Shown in pieces: positions 1-5,211 of a stretch of 5,211 nt of DNA (positions within the stretch are counted from its first letter, which is position 1; the number at the start of each line of letters is the position of its first letter). A program made the position numbers and the translations under genes. Source of the DNA: Gammaproteobacteria bacterium. Lineage in GTDB: Bacteria > Pseudomonadota > Gammaproteobacteria > GCA-001735895. The notes below the pieces were generated by a model. That model saw only the letters and a program-made list of their open reading frames with translations, did not search any database and was not told the DNA's origin. The stretch covers positions 1-5,211 of the forward strand of contig QNFD01000220.1 of assembly GCA_003645435.1 (NCBI GenBank), in the 5' to 3' direction.

Positions 1-284
1 GCAAAGACCAGAAGTACCAGTGTAATCAGCGCGAAATGGAACACCATTAAGGGCCAGTTGCTTTTAAGAATGCGCCGGGTTGCCAGTGCCAGCAGAAAAT
101 TAATTATTAACAGCGATGACGGCACCGTGATCAACCAGATTCGCCCCTCGAGAGCGATCTGGTAGTAAGTGATGATCGATAGCGTCAGTACTACCAGTAA
201 AAAAAGCGTAACCTGGTTGGATGCAAATAGACGGATTAACGCATTCGGGCTAACGCTGTTACGGTGGGTTTTCGCAGTTTTCAC
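1..284 (-). CDS. ResB/Ccs1-like cytochrome c biogenesis membrane protein, N-terminal part (3' end outside window)
   Basis: The visible 94 residues run from a GTG start at 284-282 to the window edge with no stop. After a basic, soluble N-terminus (KTAKTHRNS) come three hydrophobic stretches: about residues 24-41, 49-68 and 77 onward. A short loop (ALEGRIW) separates the first two and a basic loop (ATRRILKSNW) the last two. This pattern, with a histidine in the third stretch (H83, in LMVFHFAL), resembles the start of ResB (Ccs1/CcsB). ResB works with CcsA in System II to carry haem across the inner membrane and attach it to CXXCH apocytochromes. H83 may match the known transmembrane haem-ligand histidine of that family, which is inference. 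The GTG lies inside the eleven-haem gene (26-base overlap), implying translational coupling and a shared job. A ccsA-like gene is expected further left. The alternative is an unrelated polytopic membrane protein; without the periplasmic domain the family call is moderate. Confidence 0.66.
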   Translation of the reverse strand, partial: MKTAKTHRNSVSPNALIRLFASNQVTLFLLVVLTLSIITYYQIALEGRIWLITVPSSLLIINFLLALATRRILKSNWPLMVFHFALITLVLLVF

Positions 285-2643
285 TACTGTCTCTCATCCA
301 GTCCCGGCCGTTTTCACCGTTACCCGGGGAGCCTGCCGAACCGCAATCGCTATCCCGCCAGGTGCCACTGGAGCGGAAGTTCCTGATCTTTAGGAGTGCA
401 TTATTGTAATAAGGTCCATTGGTATATCCCGCCTCGGTATTGTTCCTCACCTGGGTTCCGGCAGGTAATCCTGCTTCCGGCCCAACATCATTCAAGTTAA
501 CCAGGAAGGCTTTATTCTTCCAGCCATGGGGCACCGAAACATGACACCAGCTACAGCGCAGATTGCCGATCTTATCAGCGTGAAAGGAATGAAGATTACT
601 ATCTTTGTTACCGCCAAAACCACTATTACCGCCACTATCTGTCGCATACCGCGTATAGTCATGGCACTTGAAACATAAATCATTGGAGTTTCCTGTCCCC
701 GTATTCCGGTCCCAGTTTCCTTTGAGGATAAAATTATTGGTCGAACCATGCGGTCCCCAGGGATTTCCATTCTCCCCACCCGATGGAGCGGAAGTGCCCA
801 GGCCGGTATTCGAACCATGACAATCCGAACAATACATCCTCTGATTTCCTACATCGCCACCACCGCTCCAGGGTGACTCCCAGTTTGCAGCATTGGTGTT
901 ACGCACGGCATTAGTACGGCCCGTGCGGCCGATGACCGGGTGCCAGGAGCGATGATTATTGGTGGAGTAGGAAGACGCCGCACCCGAATCGAAAGTCGTA
1001 ACCTCTCCTCTATGGCTGGCGGGCGCCTGGAACTCGATAGCCTGGTTGGTGTAATCGGTAACATCGTTAGTGCCGAACAGGGTATTACCACCGGTATCTC
1101 CGAGCACAGGTGGATTCACTCCGTAGGCGTAATCAGAGTGGCACTTCAGGCAAATCTGGTACTCGCGCGTCACATAGGTGCTAACGACGAGAGTACTGGC
1201 TCCACTGCCCCCGTCACCACTTTTGATAATATAACTGATCGGCAAGTTGTTCGGATCAAAACTATTAGATCCGTATACCGGTTCGATACCCCAGGAGCCG
1301 CGTAAAACGCCGGATGCAATATTGGTATGCCCGGTGCTATGATCATGTGTACCCGCCTGCGTAGTGCCAGTGCCATTGAACAAACGGTTCTTGATAACAC
1401 GATGGGGGTTGTGACAATCGGTACATTCGACGTGACGGTTACTCAGGTTAAAATTGGCATTGTCTTCAATCATATCGGCATCCTGGATATCATGAATTTC
1501 GTTTAACGCCTGCTGATCAGTAGTAGTGATCGGCATATGGGTTAGGCCGGTGGTGAAATCACTTTCTACATTAGGCACTTCAAAGCTCCCTCCACCCTGG
1601 CCAACGAGTACCCCACCATCCGCTGAATGACAGGTATAACATGCTTCTTCGAGGGCCGCATTGCCCCCGGTTTTGGGGACAGAAAGACTGTCGGTACCTT
1701 CTCTCAACAAACGACGGGTTCCCTGAACCGCATGCGTATCATGACAATTCAGACAACTGGCTTCCCAGACCCGGGTATTGGCCGGAAACTCGCGCAGATT
1801 TGCCGCGGCAGTAGTATAGATTTCATTCGCTGAAGCAGGGTCGGCATGTGCAGAAGTCGACCAGGCTGTTCCCAGTTTGTCATGACAGGCAATGCAGTTA
1901 ATATCGTTAGCTTCATTAAAATTACCACCAACCGGAAAGCCTTGCTGGAAGCGATGCAGGCGTAAAAATTTGATATTTTGAGCGATATCGGTGTCGCGAA
2001 TATGCGGATCGTGGCAACTGGTGCACTGCACCTGATTATTTTCGAGTGGCACCACCGGAGTCGTTCCTGGTGCGCGATTGCCAATATGGGTTTCCAGATT
2101 CGGATCACGCAATTCCCCATCGGTATTAGCGAGCGTACTATCGTAAGTAAAGGAAATTGGATGATCATTACCGAGATCGGTGCCGAGCTTGCGGGTGAAT
2201 CCGGTCGAATCACCGTGGCCTGAGGGCATCACACCACCAGCACCTGTGCCGCTCATGTTAATCGTCACATTGGTCTGTGCGTTCAACACGTTGACCGAAC
2301 CCAGCGCAATAGTCCCATCGTGACATGATAAACACAGCTTAGAACTACCCCCAGGTGTTGCCGCTATGTCATTGGCATCGATAGAATTGGAAGTATAGGG
2401 AGTATAGGTCGCTCCTGACGCCTGTCGATTCCACAAAGGGGCATTGGGCAGGGCTTCAGCCTGGTGCGGCGTATGGCAGAAGACGCAAATTTGGCTTTCC
2501 GAGACGGCGGTAACACTACCCGGGCTGCTAGTCGATAAATTATGCCGGGTGCTAGCAATATCAGAAATGCGCTCGGCATTGAGCGAAAAACTCACCATCA
2601 GCATCGAACCAAGCAAACTATTCAGGAAAACCCTGCAAGGCAA
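259..2643 (-). CDS. Exported undecahaem (11 x CXXCH) c-type cytochrome
   Basis: This 794-residue protein (counted from the TTG at 2643) has eleven CXXCH haem-attachment sites, with first Cys at 53, 104, 207, 250, 297, 335, 407, 498, 605, 657 and 697. Several continue as CXXCHxPH or CXXCHxxH (CHTPH 56-60, CHDPH 210-214, CHDTH 300-304, CHNPH 410-414), the paired-CXXCH style of multihaem cytochromes. At least twenty further His residues are available as distal ligands, so bis-His haems are possible throughout. Residues 5-23 form a Sec signal core ending in LNA before ERISD. The mature start, around RHNLS and then CVFCHTPH, is typical of large exported cytochromes. Haem-free stretches rich in Gly, Ser, Thr and Asn separate the sites. 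A 94-residue tail after the last haem holds two lone Cys (767, 790). The likely role is long-range electron transfer at or beyond the outer membrane. The upstream gene is a propeller lipoprotein and the downstream gene is ResB-like. The start is uncertain: TTG at 2643 has no clear ribosome site, and ATT at 2670 is better placed. I cannot assign a named orthologue. Confidence 0.93.
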   Translation of the reverse strand: MPCRVFLNSLLGSMLMVSFSLNAERISDIASTRHNLSTSSPGSVTAVSESQICVFCHTPHQAEALPNAPLWNRQASGATYTPYTSNSIDANDIAATPGGSSKLCLSCHDGTIALGSVNVLNAQTNVTINMSGTGAGGVMPSGHGDSTGFTRKLGTDLGNDHPISFTYDSTLANTDGELRDPNLETHIGNRAPGTTPVVPLENNQVQCTSCHDPHIRDTDIAQNIKFLRLHRFQQGFPVGGNFNEANDINCIACHDKLGTAWSTSAHADPASANEIYTTAAANLREFPANTRVWEASCLNCHDTHAVQGTRRLLREGTDSLSVPKTGGNAALEEACYTCHSADGGVLVGQGGGSFEVPNVESDFTTGLTHMPITTTDQQALNEIHDIQDADMIEDNANFNLSNRHVECTDCHNPHRVIKNRLFNGTGTTQAGTHDHSTGHTNIASGVLRGSWGIEPVYGSNSFDPNNLPISYIIKSGDGGSGASTLVVSTYVTREYQICLKCHSDYAYGVNPPVLGDTGGNTLFGTNDVTDYTNQAIEFQAPASHRGEVTTFDSGAASSYSTNNHRSWHPVIGRTGRTNAVRNTNAANWESPWSGGGDVGNQRMYCSDCHGSNTGLGTSAPSGGENGNPWGPHGSTNNFILKGNWDRNTGTGNSNDLCFKCHDYTRYATDSGGNSGFGGNKDSNLHSFHADKIGNLRCSWCHVSVPHGWKNKAFLVNLNDVGPEAGLPAGTQVRNNTEAGYTNGPYYNNALLKIRNFRSSGTWRDSDCGSAGSPGNGENGRDWMRDSSENCENPP
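290..295 (-). promoter_or_regulatory. Ribosome binding site for the ResB-like gene
   Basis: The minus strand reads GAGAGA, then five bases, then the GTG at 284-282. It lies inside the last codons of the eleven-haem gene. The in-frame TGA at 296-294 rules out an earlier start, so GTG at 284 is the first possible one. Confidence 0.5.
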
Positions 2644-2671
2644 CGGCGATATTTGTCTGAATTTTCGAATC

Positions 2672-3778
2672 TTAATTACCCCCCAGATACTGAAACACGG
2701 ATATGCGCCTGTTCAGCATATCTGACACGAAAATTCTATCATTACTATCCACCCACAACCCGGTGGGTTGGGAGAATTGCCCCGCTTCGAATCCGGATCC
2801 GCCCAGCGACATCAACAGATTCCCATCAGGGTTATAAACAATCACATGGTCATAATAACTTTCAGATACGTATATATTTCCATCAGAATCCAGCGCTACC
2901 CCTTTCGGTCGGGACAAATTACCCACGTACAACCCCCGTTGGCCGAGGGTTTGCAAGTATTGGCCAGTATCATCGAAAATCTGTATTCGCGCATTTAGCG
3001 AGTCACCCACGTAGAGTTTATCCTGGCGATAAGTTATAAATGTTGGATGATTCAATTCGCCCTCATTGCTACCGGATTTACCCCATATATCAATCAATTC
3101 CCCGTTAACATCAAATACCTTGATGTTGTCATCGGCGGTGTCGCTAACGAATATTCGATCGGCAGCGGGATCATAGGTGATACCGGTAGGCCGATTCAAC
3201 ACCCCCTTGCCGATGGTGTTAATCAATTCACCGTTATCATTTAACTGATATACCAGGGATAACTCCGAGTCCGTCACCCAGATAGAGTTTACCGCATTCA
3301 TCACCCCAACCGGGCTCAGAAAGGGAATATTCAGGCTAGTTTCGTTCCAGATGAAGAATTCACCTGCTCTCTCATCAAAAACAAAAATTGCCTGCCACCC
3401 CGTATCGGCCACATAAATCCTGCCATTGTTATCCGAGGAAATTTGTTGAGGCTGAACCAGATTAAGCACAGAAACTTTTTCTTCATCGACACCGGCGAGA
3501 GCTGCAAAAAAACCAGACCATGCGTTTCTATTCTGACTGATAGTCGTGGAATTGGATTCACCGTACAAGTGACCAATAAATGCATATCTCGGAACTGCCG
3601 GTGGCGATGGCCAGAGGATTATGTCGGGATTACTGGAACCGTACCCGGGCATTTGAAACGGGTATTTGACAGACACAGTACTACAGCCTGAAAACAGCAA
3701 AAAAATTATCAACCCCAGGCAACTGCGACGCATCACCGTAACGGTAATCATGTGAGACAGGCACCGCGAGATTACCAC
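2672..3778 (-). CDS. Six-bladed NHL-repeat beta-propeller lipoprotein
   Basis: The 368-residue product begins with a lipoprotein signal: MRRSC, a hydrophobic run, then LLFSGC, with Cys32 as the lipidated residue. The +2 residue is Ser, not Asp, which fits sorting to the outer membrane. After a linker with WPSPPAVPRYAF (56-67) come six NHL-type repeats at roughly 106-135, 152-190, 194-233, 242-279, 288-326 and 335-366. They show the recurring pattern hxxPxGI...D..IYVSD....I.VF..NGE....G, clearest as RPTGITYD/IFVSDTADDNIKVFD and QPTGLWVD/IFVSDMLNRRISVF. Such propellers usually act as binding platforms and have no catalytic signature here. In this operon a scaffold or assembly role for the cytochromes is the natural inference. 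No CXXCH is present. The chosen GTG at 3778 overlaps the previous stop by seven bases and has a G6 tract eight bases upstream. ATG at 3751 or 3733 are alternatives; 3733 puts the lipid Cys at residue 17. The lipoprotein and propeller calls are strong; the partner is unknown. Confidence 0.92.
   Translation of the reverse strand: MVISRCLSHMITVTVMRRSCLGLIIFLLFSGCSTVSVKYPFQMPGYGSSNPDIILWPSPPAVPRYAFIGHLYGESNSTTISQNRNAWSGFFAALAGVDEEKVSVLNLVQPQQISSDNNGRIYVADTGWQAIFVFDERAGEFFIWNETSLNIPFLSPVGVMNAVNSIWVTDSELSLVYQLNDNGELINTIGKGVLNRPTGITYDPAADRIFVSDTADDNIKVFDVNGELIDIWGKSGSNEGELNHPTFITYRQDKLYVGDSLNARIQIFDDTGQYLQTLGQRGLYVGNLSRPKGVALDSDGNIYVSESYYDHVIVYNPDGNLLMSLGGSGFEAGQFSQPTGLWVDSNDRIFVSDMLNRRISVFQYLGGN
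2679..2684 (-). promoter_or_regulatory. G6 tract, candidate ribosome binding site for the eleven-haem gene
   Basis: The minus strand reads GGGGGG, then eight bases (TAATTAAG), then ATT at 2670-2668. It lies in the last codons of the propeller gene, whose TAA is at 2674-2672, one base before that ATT. A G-run can pair with the CCUCC anti-Shine-Dalgarno through one G-U. Use of this ATT would give a signal peptide n-region with RKFR, which suits Sec export. No ATG, GTG, CTG or TTG occurs between the in-frame TGA further upstream and the TTG at 2643. Confidence 0.35.
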
Positions 3779-4188
3779 CTGCCTGGCCCCCCGGTTTGAT
3801 TACTGCCACGGATACCCGTCTTCAACCCGGGCTTGCCCGAATGGCAGAGATCGCATCTATCCACGCCCCAGGCAACCTCACCATTGTGGCACATACCACA
3901 ATACTGCCCGTCAATGATTCCCCCCATGGAAATATTGTTGGAACCAACCCGCATTTCAAATCTCAACTCGCTGTGACAAACCTTGCAGCGAAAGCGGATG
4001 CGATGGAACCAATGGGGATAAATCACCGGACGCACTCCATTTTTTTCGGAAAGCTGATTGAGCACCACATCAGCATACTCGGCTGTCGCATAAAAGCTAA
4101 GACCGAAGCTCAACACGATGAAAAGCATGACAAAAGCTTTACCACTGAATGAATAATTTATGCTTTTTGTAAACATCCTGGTTCTCAT
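3772..4188 (-). CDS. Small periplasmic triheme c7-type cytochrome
   Basis: This 138-residue protein has an N-terminal Sec signal (hydrophobic core about 18-33, likely cleavage after ATA at 34-36, before EYAD). A single trihaem domain follows, with CXXCH at 68-72 (CKVCH), 97-101 (CGMCH) and 112-116 (CDLCH). The preceding PHWFH (His59, His62) matches the PHxxH just before haem 1 in its upstream neighbour, as do the NxIxM and YCGxCH segments, so the two are paralogues. The family is the c(7)-type trihaem cytochromes, which act as small periplasmic electron shuttles. Only two His lie outside the haem motifs, so one haem may have Met88 (in NNISM), another residue or no distal ligand. The C-terminus is short, Gly-rich and cationic (LKTGIRGSN). 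The start is ATG at 4188, 18 bases after the previous stop. ATG at 4176, with GAGA upstream, is an equally good start and keeps the whole signal. Confidence 0.92.
   Translation of the reverse strand: MRTRMFTKSINYSFSGKAFVMLFIVLSFGLSFYATAEYADVVLNQLSEKNGVRPVIYPHWFHRIRFRCKVCHSELRFEMRVGSNNISMGGIIDGQYCGMCHNGEVAWGVDRCDLCHSGKPGLKTGIRGSNQTGGPGRW
3787..3792 (-). promoter_or_regulatory. G6 tract, candidate ribosome binding site for the propeller lipoprotein
   Basis: The minus strand reads GGGGGG, then eight bases (CCAGGCAG), then GTG at 3778-3776. It lies in the final codons of the small trihaem gene (the GG of TGGPGRW). The AGG inside the spacer could also serve. This favours the GTG over the ATG codons at 3751 and 3733, neither of which has a well-spaced purine tract. 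Confidence 0.4.
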
Positions 4189-4206
4189 CGATTATTGCTA
4201 TCTGGT

Positions 4207-4755
4207 TTAACGGCCAGTATTGGGTTGCACTCCAGGTTTACCGAGGAAGGTCCTTCTTACGACACTGTGACAACGATTACATTCAGTCAACGGAAATGCA
4301 ACCGCGCCATGGCATTGGCCGCAGTAATTGCCGGACAAAATAGCAAGCATATTGATTGGATTGGCATCAACTTCCTTGATAAATATCTTGTCGTGGCAGT
4401 TACTACAGTCCAGCCATTCGGTATGCGGACGATGCGGAAACAATACCAGCGGCATTTCACCGGTCCGTTCCATGATGATATCCATATCGATTACTTCGAT
4501 TTTGGTATCCGGATAGATATTAGTACGAGGTTCGATATATCCCTGCTTTAATGCCTGGTTCCATAACACCTTATTACCCACGCTGTCAGGTGGTAGTTGT
4601 GACAGTGCTTCCGCGGGTTCCTGTAACATTTCAATTGCAGGGTTGGCAGGGTCGTGCAAGCCGTCATCTTTCAGCGGCTTCCAGTTTCGTTCGGCGCTCT
4701 GCAAGCCAGATGAAATGAGTAACAGCGTTAGACAAATGCAGTATTTGATATTCAT
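4207..4755 (-). CDS. Periplasmic triheme c7-type cytochrome with N-terminal extension
   Basis: From ATG at 4755 the product is 182 residues. Numbering here counts from the TTG at 4764, three residues earlier. The Sec signal (NIKYCICLTLLLISSGLQSA) is followed by a mature start at ERNWKP. Residues 30-100 form an extension with no haem, including a DGLHDPANPAIEMLQ segment, and then the trihaem domain follows: PHRPH (111, 114), CSNCH (120-124), NPINM (Met139), CGQCH (148-152) and CNRCH (162-166). His37 in the extension could be the third distal ligand, giving three for three haems, unlike the shorter paralogue next door. The role is periplasmic electron carriage between an inner-membrane donor or acceptor and the larger cytochrome, inferred from family and operon. 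ATG at 4755 was preferred to the TTG because it has GAGG just upstream (4762-4759) and starts five bases after the previous stop. Cys9 and Cys11 lie in the signal and are unlikely to be lipidated. Confidence 0.92.
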   Translation of the reverse strand: MNIKYCICLTLLLISSGLQSAERNWKPLKDDGLHDPANPAIEMLQEPAEALSQLPPDSVGNKVLWNQALKQGYIEPRTNIYPDTKIEVIDMDIIMERTGEMPLVLFPHRPHTEWLDCSNCHDKIFIKEVDANPINMLAILSGNYCGQCHGAVAFPLTECNRCHSVVRRTFLGKPGVQPNTGR

Positions 4756-4760
4756 GAGCC

Positions 4761-5211
4761 TCAACCCGGAATATAAATACCGGCACTGCGAATCGCGCGC
4801 ACCAGTTGCTTGGTCGATTGTTCGAGCAAGTCGATGGCTATTTCATAAGCGCCGTCTCCGGCATAGGCGTCTGCCTGTTGGCGCAATACCTTTGCCTCCG
4901 CAACAAATTTAGTGACTTGCGTTTTGCTGTAATCCGACTTTTCTTTTCCCTCAACCAGCAGTCGAATCAGCATATTATGGGTATCATTTCGATCGATTTC
5001 ATAATCATACTCCTCTTCTTTTGTTTCAAATTGCAGTGACCGTACCAGGGTTTGCCCGGACCTGATGGACTCGATAGATACCTTTAGTAAATGGTAAGCC
5101 TTGTCTATTTCGCGACGAGCCTCTGTACTATCACCTTTGCCTAACAATTCATCGGCCCGGGCGATTAACTGGTCTAACTGATTATTGACCTTTTGTTTGC
5201 TGTCGGTTTCA
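4761..5211 (-). CDS. Helical protein of unknown function, C-terminal part (5' end outside window)
   Basis: The frame is open from the window edge (5211) to a TGA at 4763-4761, giving 150 visible residues and no certain start. TTG at 5147 is only an internal Leu, since coding continues upstream with DQLIARADELLGKGD. The sequence is highly charged and rich in Glu, Lys, Arg, Leu and Ala. It has helical-repeat patterns (ADELLGKGDSTEARREIDKAY near the start, ADAYAGDGAYEIAIDLLEQSTK near the end) that look like paired helices of the TPR kind. Between them lies a distinctive block with SGQTLVRSLQF, KEEEYDYEIDR and NDTHNML. The end, LVRAIRSAGIYIPG, is also distinctive. There is no CXXCH, no metal motif and no membrane segment in the visible part. 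It is the first visible gene of the operon, five bases before the trihaem cytochrome, so it may help assemble or dock cytochromes. That is inference, as I do not recognise a named family. Confidence 0.8.
   Translation of the reverse strand, partial: ETDSKQKVNNQLDQLIARADELLGKGDSTEARREIDKAYHLLKVSIESIRSGQTLVRSLQFETKEEEYDYEIDRNDTHNMLIRLLVEGKEKSDYSKTQVTKFVAEAKVLRQQADAYAGDGAYEIAIDLLEQSTKQLVRAIRSAGIYIPG

Follow-up and report, generated by a model that had tools for sequence, protein, structure and literature searches.

A gammaproteobacterial undecahaem cytochrome locus, very probably half of a Uet cluster, and its relation to the OmcE nanowire

Which electron transfer system does a run of multihaem cytochrome genes on a gammaproteobacterial contig encode, and how might its parts fit together at the cell envelope? 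We analysed the 5,211 nucleotides of contig QNFD01000220.1 (assembly GCA_003645435.1, positions 1 to 5,211), referred to here as the window. An earlier note, made from the letters alone, had described a pair of trihaem c7 cytochromes, a lipoprotein with an NHL propeller, an exported 11-haem cytochrome and a haem-attachment gene, all of which could be confirmed using open reading frames (ORFs), CXXCH counts, Pfam and NCBIfam matches and a ResB model. The span it gave, 259..4755, has as its exact limits the stop codon of the 11-haem gene and the start ATG of the first c7 gene. It had also likened the locus, by composition, to the undecahaem Uet cluster, which Eddie et al. (2022, mSphere) reportedly name. 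This comparison was correct, and we conclude with high confidence that the window covers the downstream half of such a cluster, of the type that has a pair of G cytochromes and a single propeller (Table 1); the note's reading of it as a presumed extracellular electron transfer cluster was likewise right. The most informative feature of the cluster, absent from the earlier note, is the relation of two of its proteins, UetA and UetJ, to OmcE, the nanowire cytochrome of Geobacter sulfurreducens (PDB 7TFS).

Relatives were collected by scanning GTDB genomes once with the 11-haem protein as query, which gave 576 confirmed stretches of which the best 80 were kept; open frames were called in all 80 loci, clustered and used to build profiles, and Pfam was run on single members. 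The recurring order is A (four haems), B, C, D and E (c7), F1/F2 (TPR-like), G1 and G2 (c7), H and I (NHL), J (11 haems), ResB and CcsA. In locus L004, B matches a PPIC-type isomerase, ResB lies just at the cut-off, CcsA carries a cytochrome c assembly domain and UetC has no Pfam match. The predicted model of UetC from L002 is a barrel of 28 beta strands (mean predicted local distance difference test score, pLDDT, of 90.9), with barrels, MtrB included, among its structure matches and the longest alignment to MtrB, so that the relatives contain the large outer-membrane beta-barrel expected of a conduit. The published set, so far as the sources list it, comprises tetrahaem UetA, isomerase UetB, beta-barrel porin UetC, trihaem UetD/E/G, NHL proteins UetH/I and undecahaem UetJ (PMC10734462), in agreement with the gene order of the related loci, and the locus tags listed for the trihaem, TPR and undecahaem genes of Ca. 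Tenderia electrophaga follow that order too (PMC5371394). The name Uet is used here on the basis of these gene lists and of gene order. Within the window itself we find the undecahaem UetJ, an NHL protein directly upstream of it, trihaem c7 genes and a TPR-type gene upstream of the G genes.

The earlier note had reported neither a porin nor an isomerase, and had suggested a complete wire from periplasm to surface. Both genes are missing from view because the window holds only the downstream half of the cluster: they lie beyond the upstream edge of the window in its nearest relatives (L001, L002, L004, L005 and L006), and the window covers about half of the cluster, not a complete wire. A search beyond the edges, carried out in the relatives, placed the barrel, the isomerase, CcsA and further cytochromes in the recurring gene order. 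Genes on the strand of J were counted in the fetched stretches of the 47 of 80 loci with at least 9 kb 5′ of J, giving A in 38, B in 41, C in 42, D in 42, E in 43, G1 in 42, G2 in 37, H in 22 and I in 44. A, B, C, D, E, G1 and I occur all together in 37 of these loci, partially in seven (L011, L020, L028, L031, L033, L041 and L047) and not at all in three (L054, L056 and L062). For L028, L033 and L047 the fetched flank ends just short of A, which a genome search places about 10 kb from J, while the G genes counted for L014 and L021 lie about 9 kb downstream of J. Where 4 kb or more of downstream sequence was fetched, ResB and CcsA are both present in 46 of 58 loci. Among the 55 loci that have I and no less than 3.5 kb of upstream sequence, 23, including the five nearest relatives, share the two-G, single-propeller layout of the window; the others have G1, G2 and H (22), a Tenderia-like G1 and H without G2 (8) or none of G1, G2 and H (2). 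Since UetH is absent from 25 of the 55, as it is here, we do not treat it as defining the cluster.

UetA of L004 aligns with OmcE over its full length, and UetA-like frames end two residues past haem 4 in 37 of 37 cases. The N-terminal domain of UetJ resembles OmcE both by sequence and by predicted fold, OmcE being its sole Foldseek match in the PDB. The four haems of UetA and its additional histidines 35, 61, 159 and 243 are conserved at 95-100% (n = 37) and align with haems 1-4 and His34, 60, 161 and 214 of UetJ; UetA and the UetJ domain accordingly share with the OmcE-type protomer both homology in sequence or fold and a set of four haems with four non-CXXCH histidines. According to the available parts of the structural literature, haem 2 of OmcE takes as ligand a histidine from the neighbouring subunit (PMC12203936), and ligation across subunits is described likewise in PMC12954529 and PMC9473688; for OmcE polymers, PMC12954529 gives a rise of 34 Å. 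A domain of this kind would expect a partner, and its presence at the head of UetJ therefore suggests docking. In the searched literature naming both OmcE and Tenderia, of which parts were available and which excludes the Uet-naming and OmcE structure papers, we found no link between the two, and one may already be in print. The PDB yielded no relative of UetJ at E 0.01 beyond OmcE and 9yuq. Chain N of the latter, a 'putative multiheme cytochrome c' in an entry of 16 chains, is related to both UetA and UetJ.

Could UetJ instead be a periplasmic respiratory enzyme of the nitrite, hydroxylamine or tetrathionate type, one of two findings that the earlier note said would count against its proposal? 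Eleven CXXCH motifs are present in 203 of 204 aligned UetJ rows (ten in the remaining one) and 15 further histidines are kept in 203 or 204 of the 204 rows; a comparison of long (124) with short (127) relatives finds 14 additional histidines common to both, at 99% or more in each. There is no CXXCK in UetJ, as every cysteine except Cys 3, 767 and 790 sits within CXXCH. This ligand pattern fits a wire and not an enzyme. One His/Met haem may exist at the conserved Met370, where the short family has histidine, tuning UetJ to high potential. The NrfH and NrfB profiles of NCBIfam match weakly, at scores well short of their cut-offs, and this and the occurrence of some loci outside uet clusters would suit an enzyme, whereas the lack of any PDB relative apart from the two named above, the association with a barrel and an OmcE-like UetA, and the absence of any match at E 10 to NrfA, HAO or OTR-type PDB chains in a sequence-profile search all speak against one. 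With neither a catalytic-haem signature nor an enzyme relative found, we regard this explanation as highly improbable.

The other such finding, an 11-haem gene occurring without the other genes, was made in part: the three loci of 47 with no uet neighbour are of this kind, yet full-length UetA is encoded elsewhere in all three genomes. The pairing of J and A was also counted in an even draw of 369 genomes from the same class, in which the best two (J) or six (A) candidates per genome were scored. Cut-offs of at least 600 bits for UetJ and at least 240 bits for UetA were chosen after the data had been seen and placed in the gap of best-per-genome scores, where the next UetA (149 bits) is that of G121. 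UetJ exceeds 600 bits in 39 of the 369 genomes, or 40 with a partial match in G087 (positions 10-465), and by a two-by-two count made by hand UetA reaches its cut-off in 39 of these 40 and in none of the 329 others, the sole genome with J and without A being G337. Among the 80 loci, 38 lack a UetA-like frame; the genomes of 17 were searched and 16 contain full-length UetA (at least 239 bits), in several cases just beyond the fetched flank or beside another J, the exception being G008, the genome of L051, which has weaker OmcE-like matches only. The genome of L020, a locus that does have a UetA-like frame, was searched as well. Within the taxonomic order of the genome carrying L054, 22 of 24 genomes have a UetJ match at 1e-30, that of G034 being weak and N-terminal only.

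Eleven of the 369 genomes had only a weak UetJ match, and seven such loci were fetched (L081-L087). Each encodes a four-haem protein of 219-238 amino acids and an 11-haem protein, the latter 569-597 amino acids long in five of them; in L085 it is cut at the contig end and in L087 the frame is open too far upstream. The order in L081-L084 and L087 is A, NHL, a protein of about 680 amino acids (632-717), NHL and J. L086 has two trihaem genes in place of the first NHL gene and an NHL gene upstream of A instead, and L085 has ResB- and CcsA-like genes between J and A. Against OmcE, the small protein of L084 scores 3.6e-22 and its 11-haem protein 7.6e-31, and an hhalign comparison of the short 11-haem proteins with the long ones shows homology along most of the sequence (probability 100, E 2e-104). 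The short loci are a second, widespread version of the module. Relatives of short type are very common: 7,640 candidates out of 7,998 scored match at E 0.001, although many of them may be more general multihaem proteins. The short type also occurs in Thiohalobacter sp. IOR34, whereas the long-type locus L046 is from Ramlibacter lithotrophicus RBP-1. When the N-domains are placed in a tree, UetA (37 rows) and UetJ (29 rows) each come out as a supported group, the short J rows fall with UetJ (94/90, not starred) and the short A rows are not united in a single group. This tree, which is unrooted, suggests that the split between subunit and adaptor domain probably predates that between long and short versions. 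Short UetJ relatives, as in L084:10150-11856, end in a CX3CH-like motif, with two histidines kept in 125 of 127 rows, a possible twelfth haem.

We propose that the cluster would work as a porin-cytochrome conduit of the outer membrane. The trihaem cytochromes D, E, G1 and G2 would carry electrons through the periplasm, and UetJ, positioned at the UetC barrel by a scaffold formed of the propeller lipoprotein UetI, would pass them on, either through the outer membrane or at it. In this scheme the OmcE-like N-domain of UetJ would be the seat at which a filament of the OmcE-like tetrahaem UetA starts, UetB would serve folding and ResB/CcsA haem attachment. Flow is probably in the direction of uptake, which we favour because the published hosts, in the sources available in part, are biocathode and iron-oxidising bacteria. 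Gene order, homologies, the barrel, the common fold and the co-occurrence are computed results; the periplasmic and surface locations, the seating of UetJ at UetC, the UetA filament, docking by way of the common domain and the direction of flow are inferred from them. We give this working as a whole, including the N-domain of UetJ as the seat of a UetA filament, about an even chance of being right. The short version counts in its favour, as it repeats the pair of OmcE-like subunit and 11-haem protein, with propellers and the protein of about 680 amino acids between them.

A number of observations weigh against this proposal. No UetA filament and no UetA-UetJ complex has been seen, and the co-occurrence of A and J fits any joint function of the two. 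The N-domain is the weakest part of the UetJ model, with residues 54-97 at pLDDT below 50, and as UetJ keeps all four distal histidines of the domain and many others, its haem 2 could be satisfied internally. In the N-domain tree the short-type subunit of L085 groups with the J rows (99/94). Weaker UetA-type matches occur in nine further genomes, among them G121 (positions 16-270), which has no UetJ match. In ten loci the sequence fetched around J contains no uet gene and neither ResB nor CcsA; less than 5 kb was available upstream in seven of the ten. A, B and C, in place in the five nearest relatives, are known for the window from those relatives alone. Finally, UetJ residues 202-342 match the MtrC/MtrF-like family PF22113 (4.8e-15), as would suit a plain surface or conduit cytochrome.

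This last match also speaks for a conduit without filaments. Here UetA would act at the surface as a small cytochrome in monomeric form, UetJ would resemble MtrA/MtrC as a wire embedded in the porin or lying at the surface, and the OmcE fold would be a sign of common ancestry only. The resemblance of the UetC barrel to MtrB and the description of UetA, in the part of PMC10734462 available, simply as an extracellular tetrahaem cytochrome would agree with this reading; the retention in UetA of the four haems, four distal histidines and C-terminus of OmcE, and the recurrence of its pairing with an OmcE-like J domain in the deeply diverged short family, would not, and we consider it possible though unlikely. 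Alternatively, UetJ could itself be the filament subunit, polymerising through its complete protomer-like domain, for which its 14 shared additional histidines for 11 haems would leave spare ligands, with UetA as cap or starter. However, OmcE and UetA stop right after haem 4, so the roughly 530 further residues of UetJ would be expected to occupy the packing place of the next subunit, and the OmcE-sized product of the cluster is UetA; we judge this arrangement improbable.

Returning to UetJ as a seat for UetA filaments, a broader and more tentative proposal, which we rate somewhat below even, is that UetJ and its short relatives form the base of OmcE-type nanowires, with a first domain mimicking the filament subunit and a seven-haem part joined to barrel and propeller, as a general nanowire-docking module of which Uet would be an elaborated form. 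The available text of a 2025 review describes porin-cytochrome conduits as without direct biochemical evidence tying them to nanowire formation (PMC12307469), and the route that leads from filaments to the cell interior is described as poorly understood in what is available of PMC10553843. As a cluster it is of a known kind; what makes it worth following is its relation to OmcE together with the pairing of A and J, since the link between conduit and nanowire is described as unproven (PMC12307469). A membrane-side cytochrome with the nanowire's own fold, encoded in a conserved gene pair, provides a specific two-gene hypothesis for how wires plug into the cell, and the undecahaem Uet cluster of biocathode and iron-oxidising bacteria becomes a candidate nanowire system. 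If true, OmcE-like subunit, propeller, barrel and 11-haem adaptor would together constitute a general nanowire-docking system.

Profiles built from the relatives gave F2, G1, G2, I and ResB as best models for the corresponding ORFs of the window. The two c7 proteins contain three CXXCH motifs each, making 17 with those of UetJ; these numbers (3, 3 and 11) are beyond chance, as shuffling the three sequences leaves 0.01, 0.01 and 0.03 motifs on average. Both c7 proteins match TIGR04257, named 'nanowire_3heme', as well as PF14522 (Cytochrome_C7). For UetG1 a TTG at 4764 is likewise open upstream of the ATG at 4755, and the frame of UetI, in which we read a lipobox-like LFSGC, opens at 3778. The 5′-truncated UetF2-like gene, not part of the earlier note's finding, belongs to the same gene run as the cytochromes, and its ORF (5210..4761) has a weak Pfam TPR_2 match below cut-off. 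The ResB-like fragment (284..3) has no Pfam match above cut-off, the ResB of L004 itself being only just at that of PF05140. No structure match was found for the seven-haem C-terminal part of UetJ.

Table 1. Features of the window
Feature	Position	Strand	Evidence and remarks
UetF2-like TPR/helical protein, 5′ end beyond window edge	4761..5210	minus	149 aa seen; ORF; 243 bits, F2 model from relatives
UetG1, trihaem c7 cytochrome, signal-peptide-like N-terminus	4207..4755	minus	PF14522 5.1e-11; TIGR04257 6e-17; G1 model 313 bits
UetG2, second trihaem c7 cytochrome, signal-peptide-like N-terminus	3772..4188	minus	PF14522 1.3e-13; TIGR04257 4.5e-17; G2 model 237 bits
UetI, NHL-propeller lipoprotein	2672..3733	minus	PF01436 (NHL) 8.5e-25; I model 529 bits vs 140 for H
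UetJ, exported undecahaem cytochrome	259..2643	minus	794 aa from TTG, start uncertain; 11 CXXCH; PF09699 (Paired_CXXCH_1) 4e-24
UetJ N-terminal OmcE-like domain	1858..2571	minus	residues ~25-262; haems 1-4; His34, 60, 161, 214
UetJ seven-haem C-terminal part, haems 5-11	262..1857	minus	CXXCH count, Pfam, predicted structure
UetJ Met370	1534..1536	minus	Met in 124/124 long UetJ rows vs His in 127/127 short-family rows
ResB/CcsB-like haem-attachment protein, N-terminal part	3..284	minus	62.5 bits (E 9.7e-21), ResB model from relatives

Several further observations concern the surroundings of UetJ and its partners in the related loci. UetE has an extra monohaem domain in some loci, and in L004 (5106-6071) a CBB3-type monohaem domain is joined to the c7 domain, a possible link to the inner-membrane chain. 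Extra UetA-like cytochromes with four or five haems lie downstream of ResB in L001:13538-14468 (across two frames), L006:13481-14455 and L030:12856-13596. Two regulator families occur near the cluster, mostly downstream, in loci such as L011 and L024: histidine kinases in 23 of the 80 loci and sigma-54 response regulators in 17. In L060, L061, L067 and L075 the 11-haem genes are followed by a family of proteins of about 740 amino acids, whose sampled member (L067) matches a Pfam lactonase 7-bladed propeller; in three of these four loci 11-haem genes of UetJ size stand in tandem pairs, the first gene being cut in L060. Where the fetched sequence shows UetJ standing apart from other uet genes (L051, L053, L054, L056, L063 and L068), it lies near TPP-enzyme and amidohydrolase families (Pfam, one member each). 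A tblastn search of plasmid records at 1e-5 gave no UetJ relatives.

Among known systems, the OmcE nanowire shares with the cluster a protein homologous end to end, UetA, and, in the N-domain of UetJ, its fold, haems and four additional histidines; unlike OmcE, UetJ has seven more haems, and no filament has been shown for UetA or UetJ. A large outer-membrane barrel linked to multihaem cytochromes, and the MtrC/MtrF-like stretch in UetJ, recall the MtrCAB/MtoAB conduits, from which Uet differs in that the NCBIfam DmsE/MtrA-type profile matches only below cut-off and the UetJ profile has no sequence match at E 10 to MtrA or MtrC chains in the PDB. OetABI of syntrophic sulfate reducers is similar in that a porin conduit has been proposed next to filament-forming cytochromes (PMC10553843), and a related operon is described with an isomerase and a beta-propeller (PMC12246660); going by the descriptions available in part rather than by sequence, it is set apart by filament candidates of OmcS/OmcX types. 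With uetABCDEFGHIJ of Ca. Tenderia electrophaga and the Tenderiales the cluster shares the component set, so far as the sources give it (PMC10734462, PMC5371394, PMC12575090). Compared by published gene list rather than Tenderia sequence, the window differs in its two G-type trihaem genes and single NHL gene, and the order A B C D E F G H I J, as in Tenderia, is found in loci L070, L072, L076, L077 and L079.

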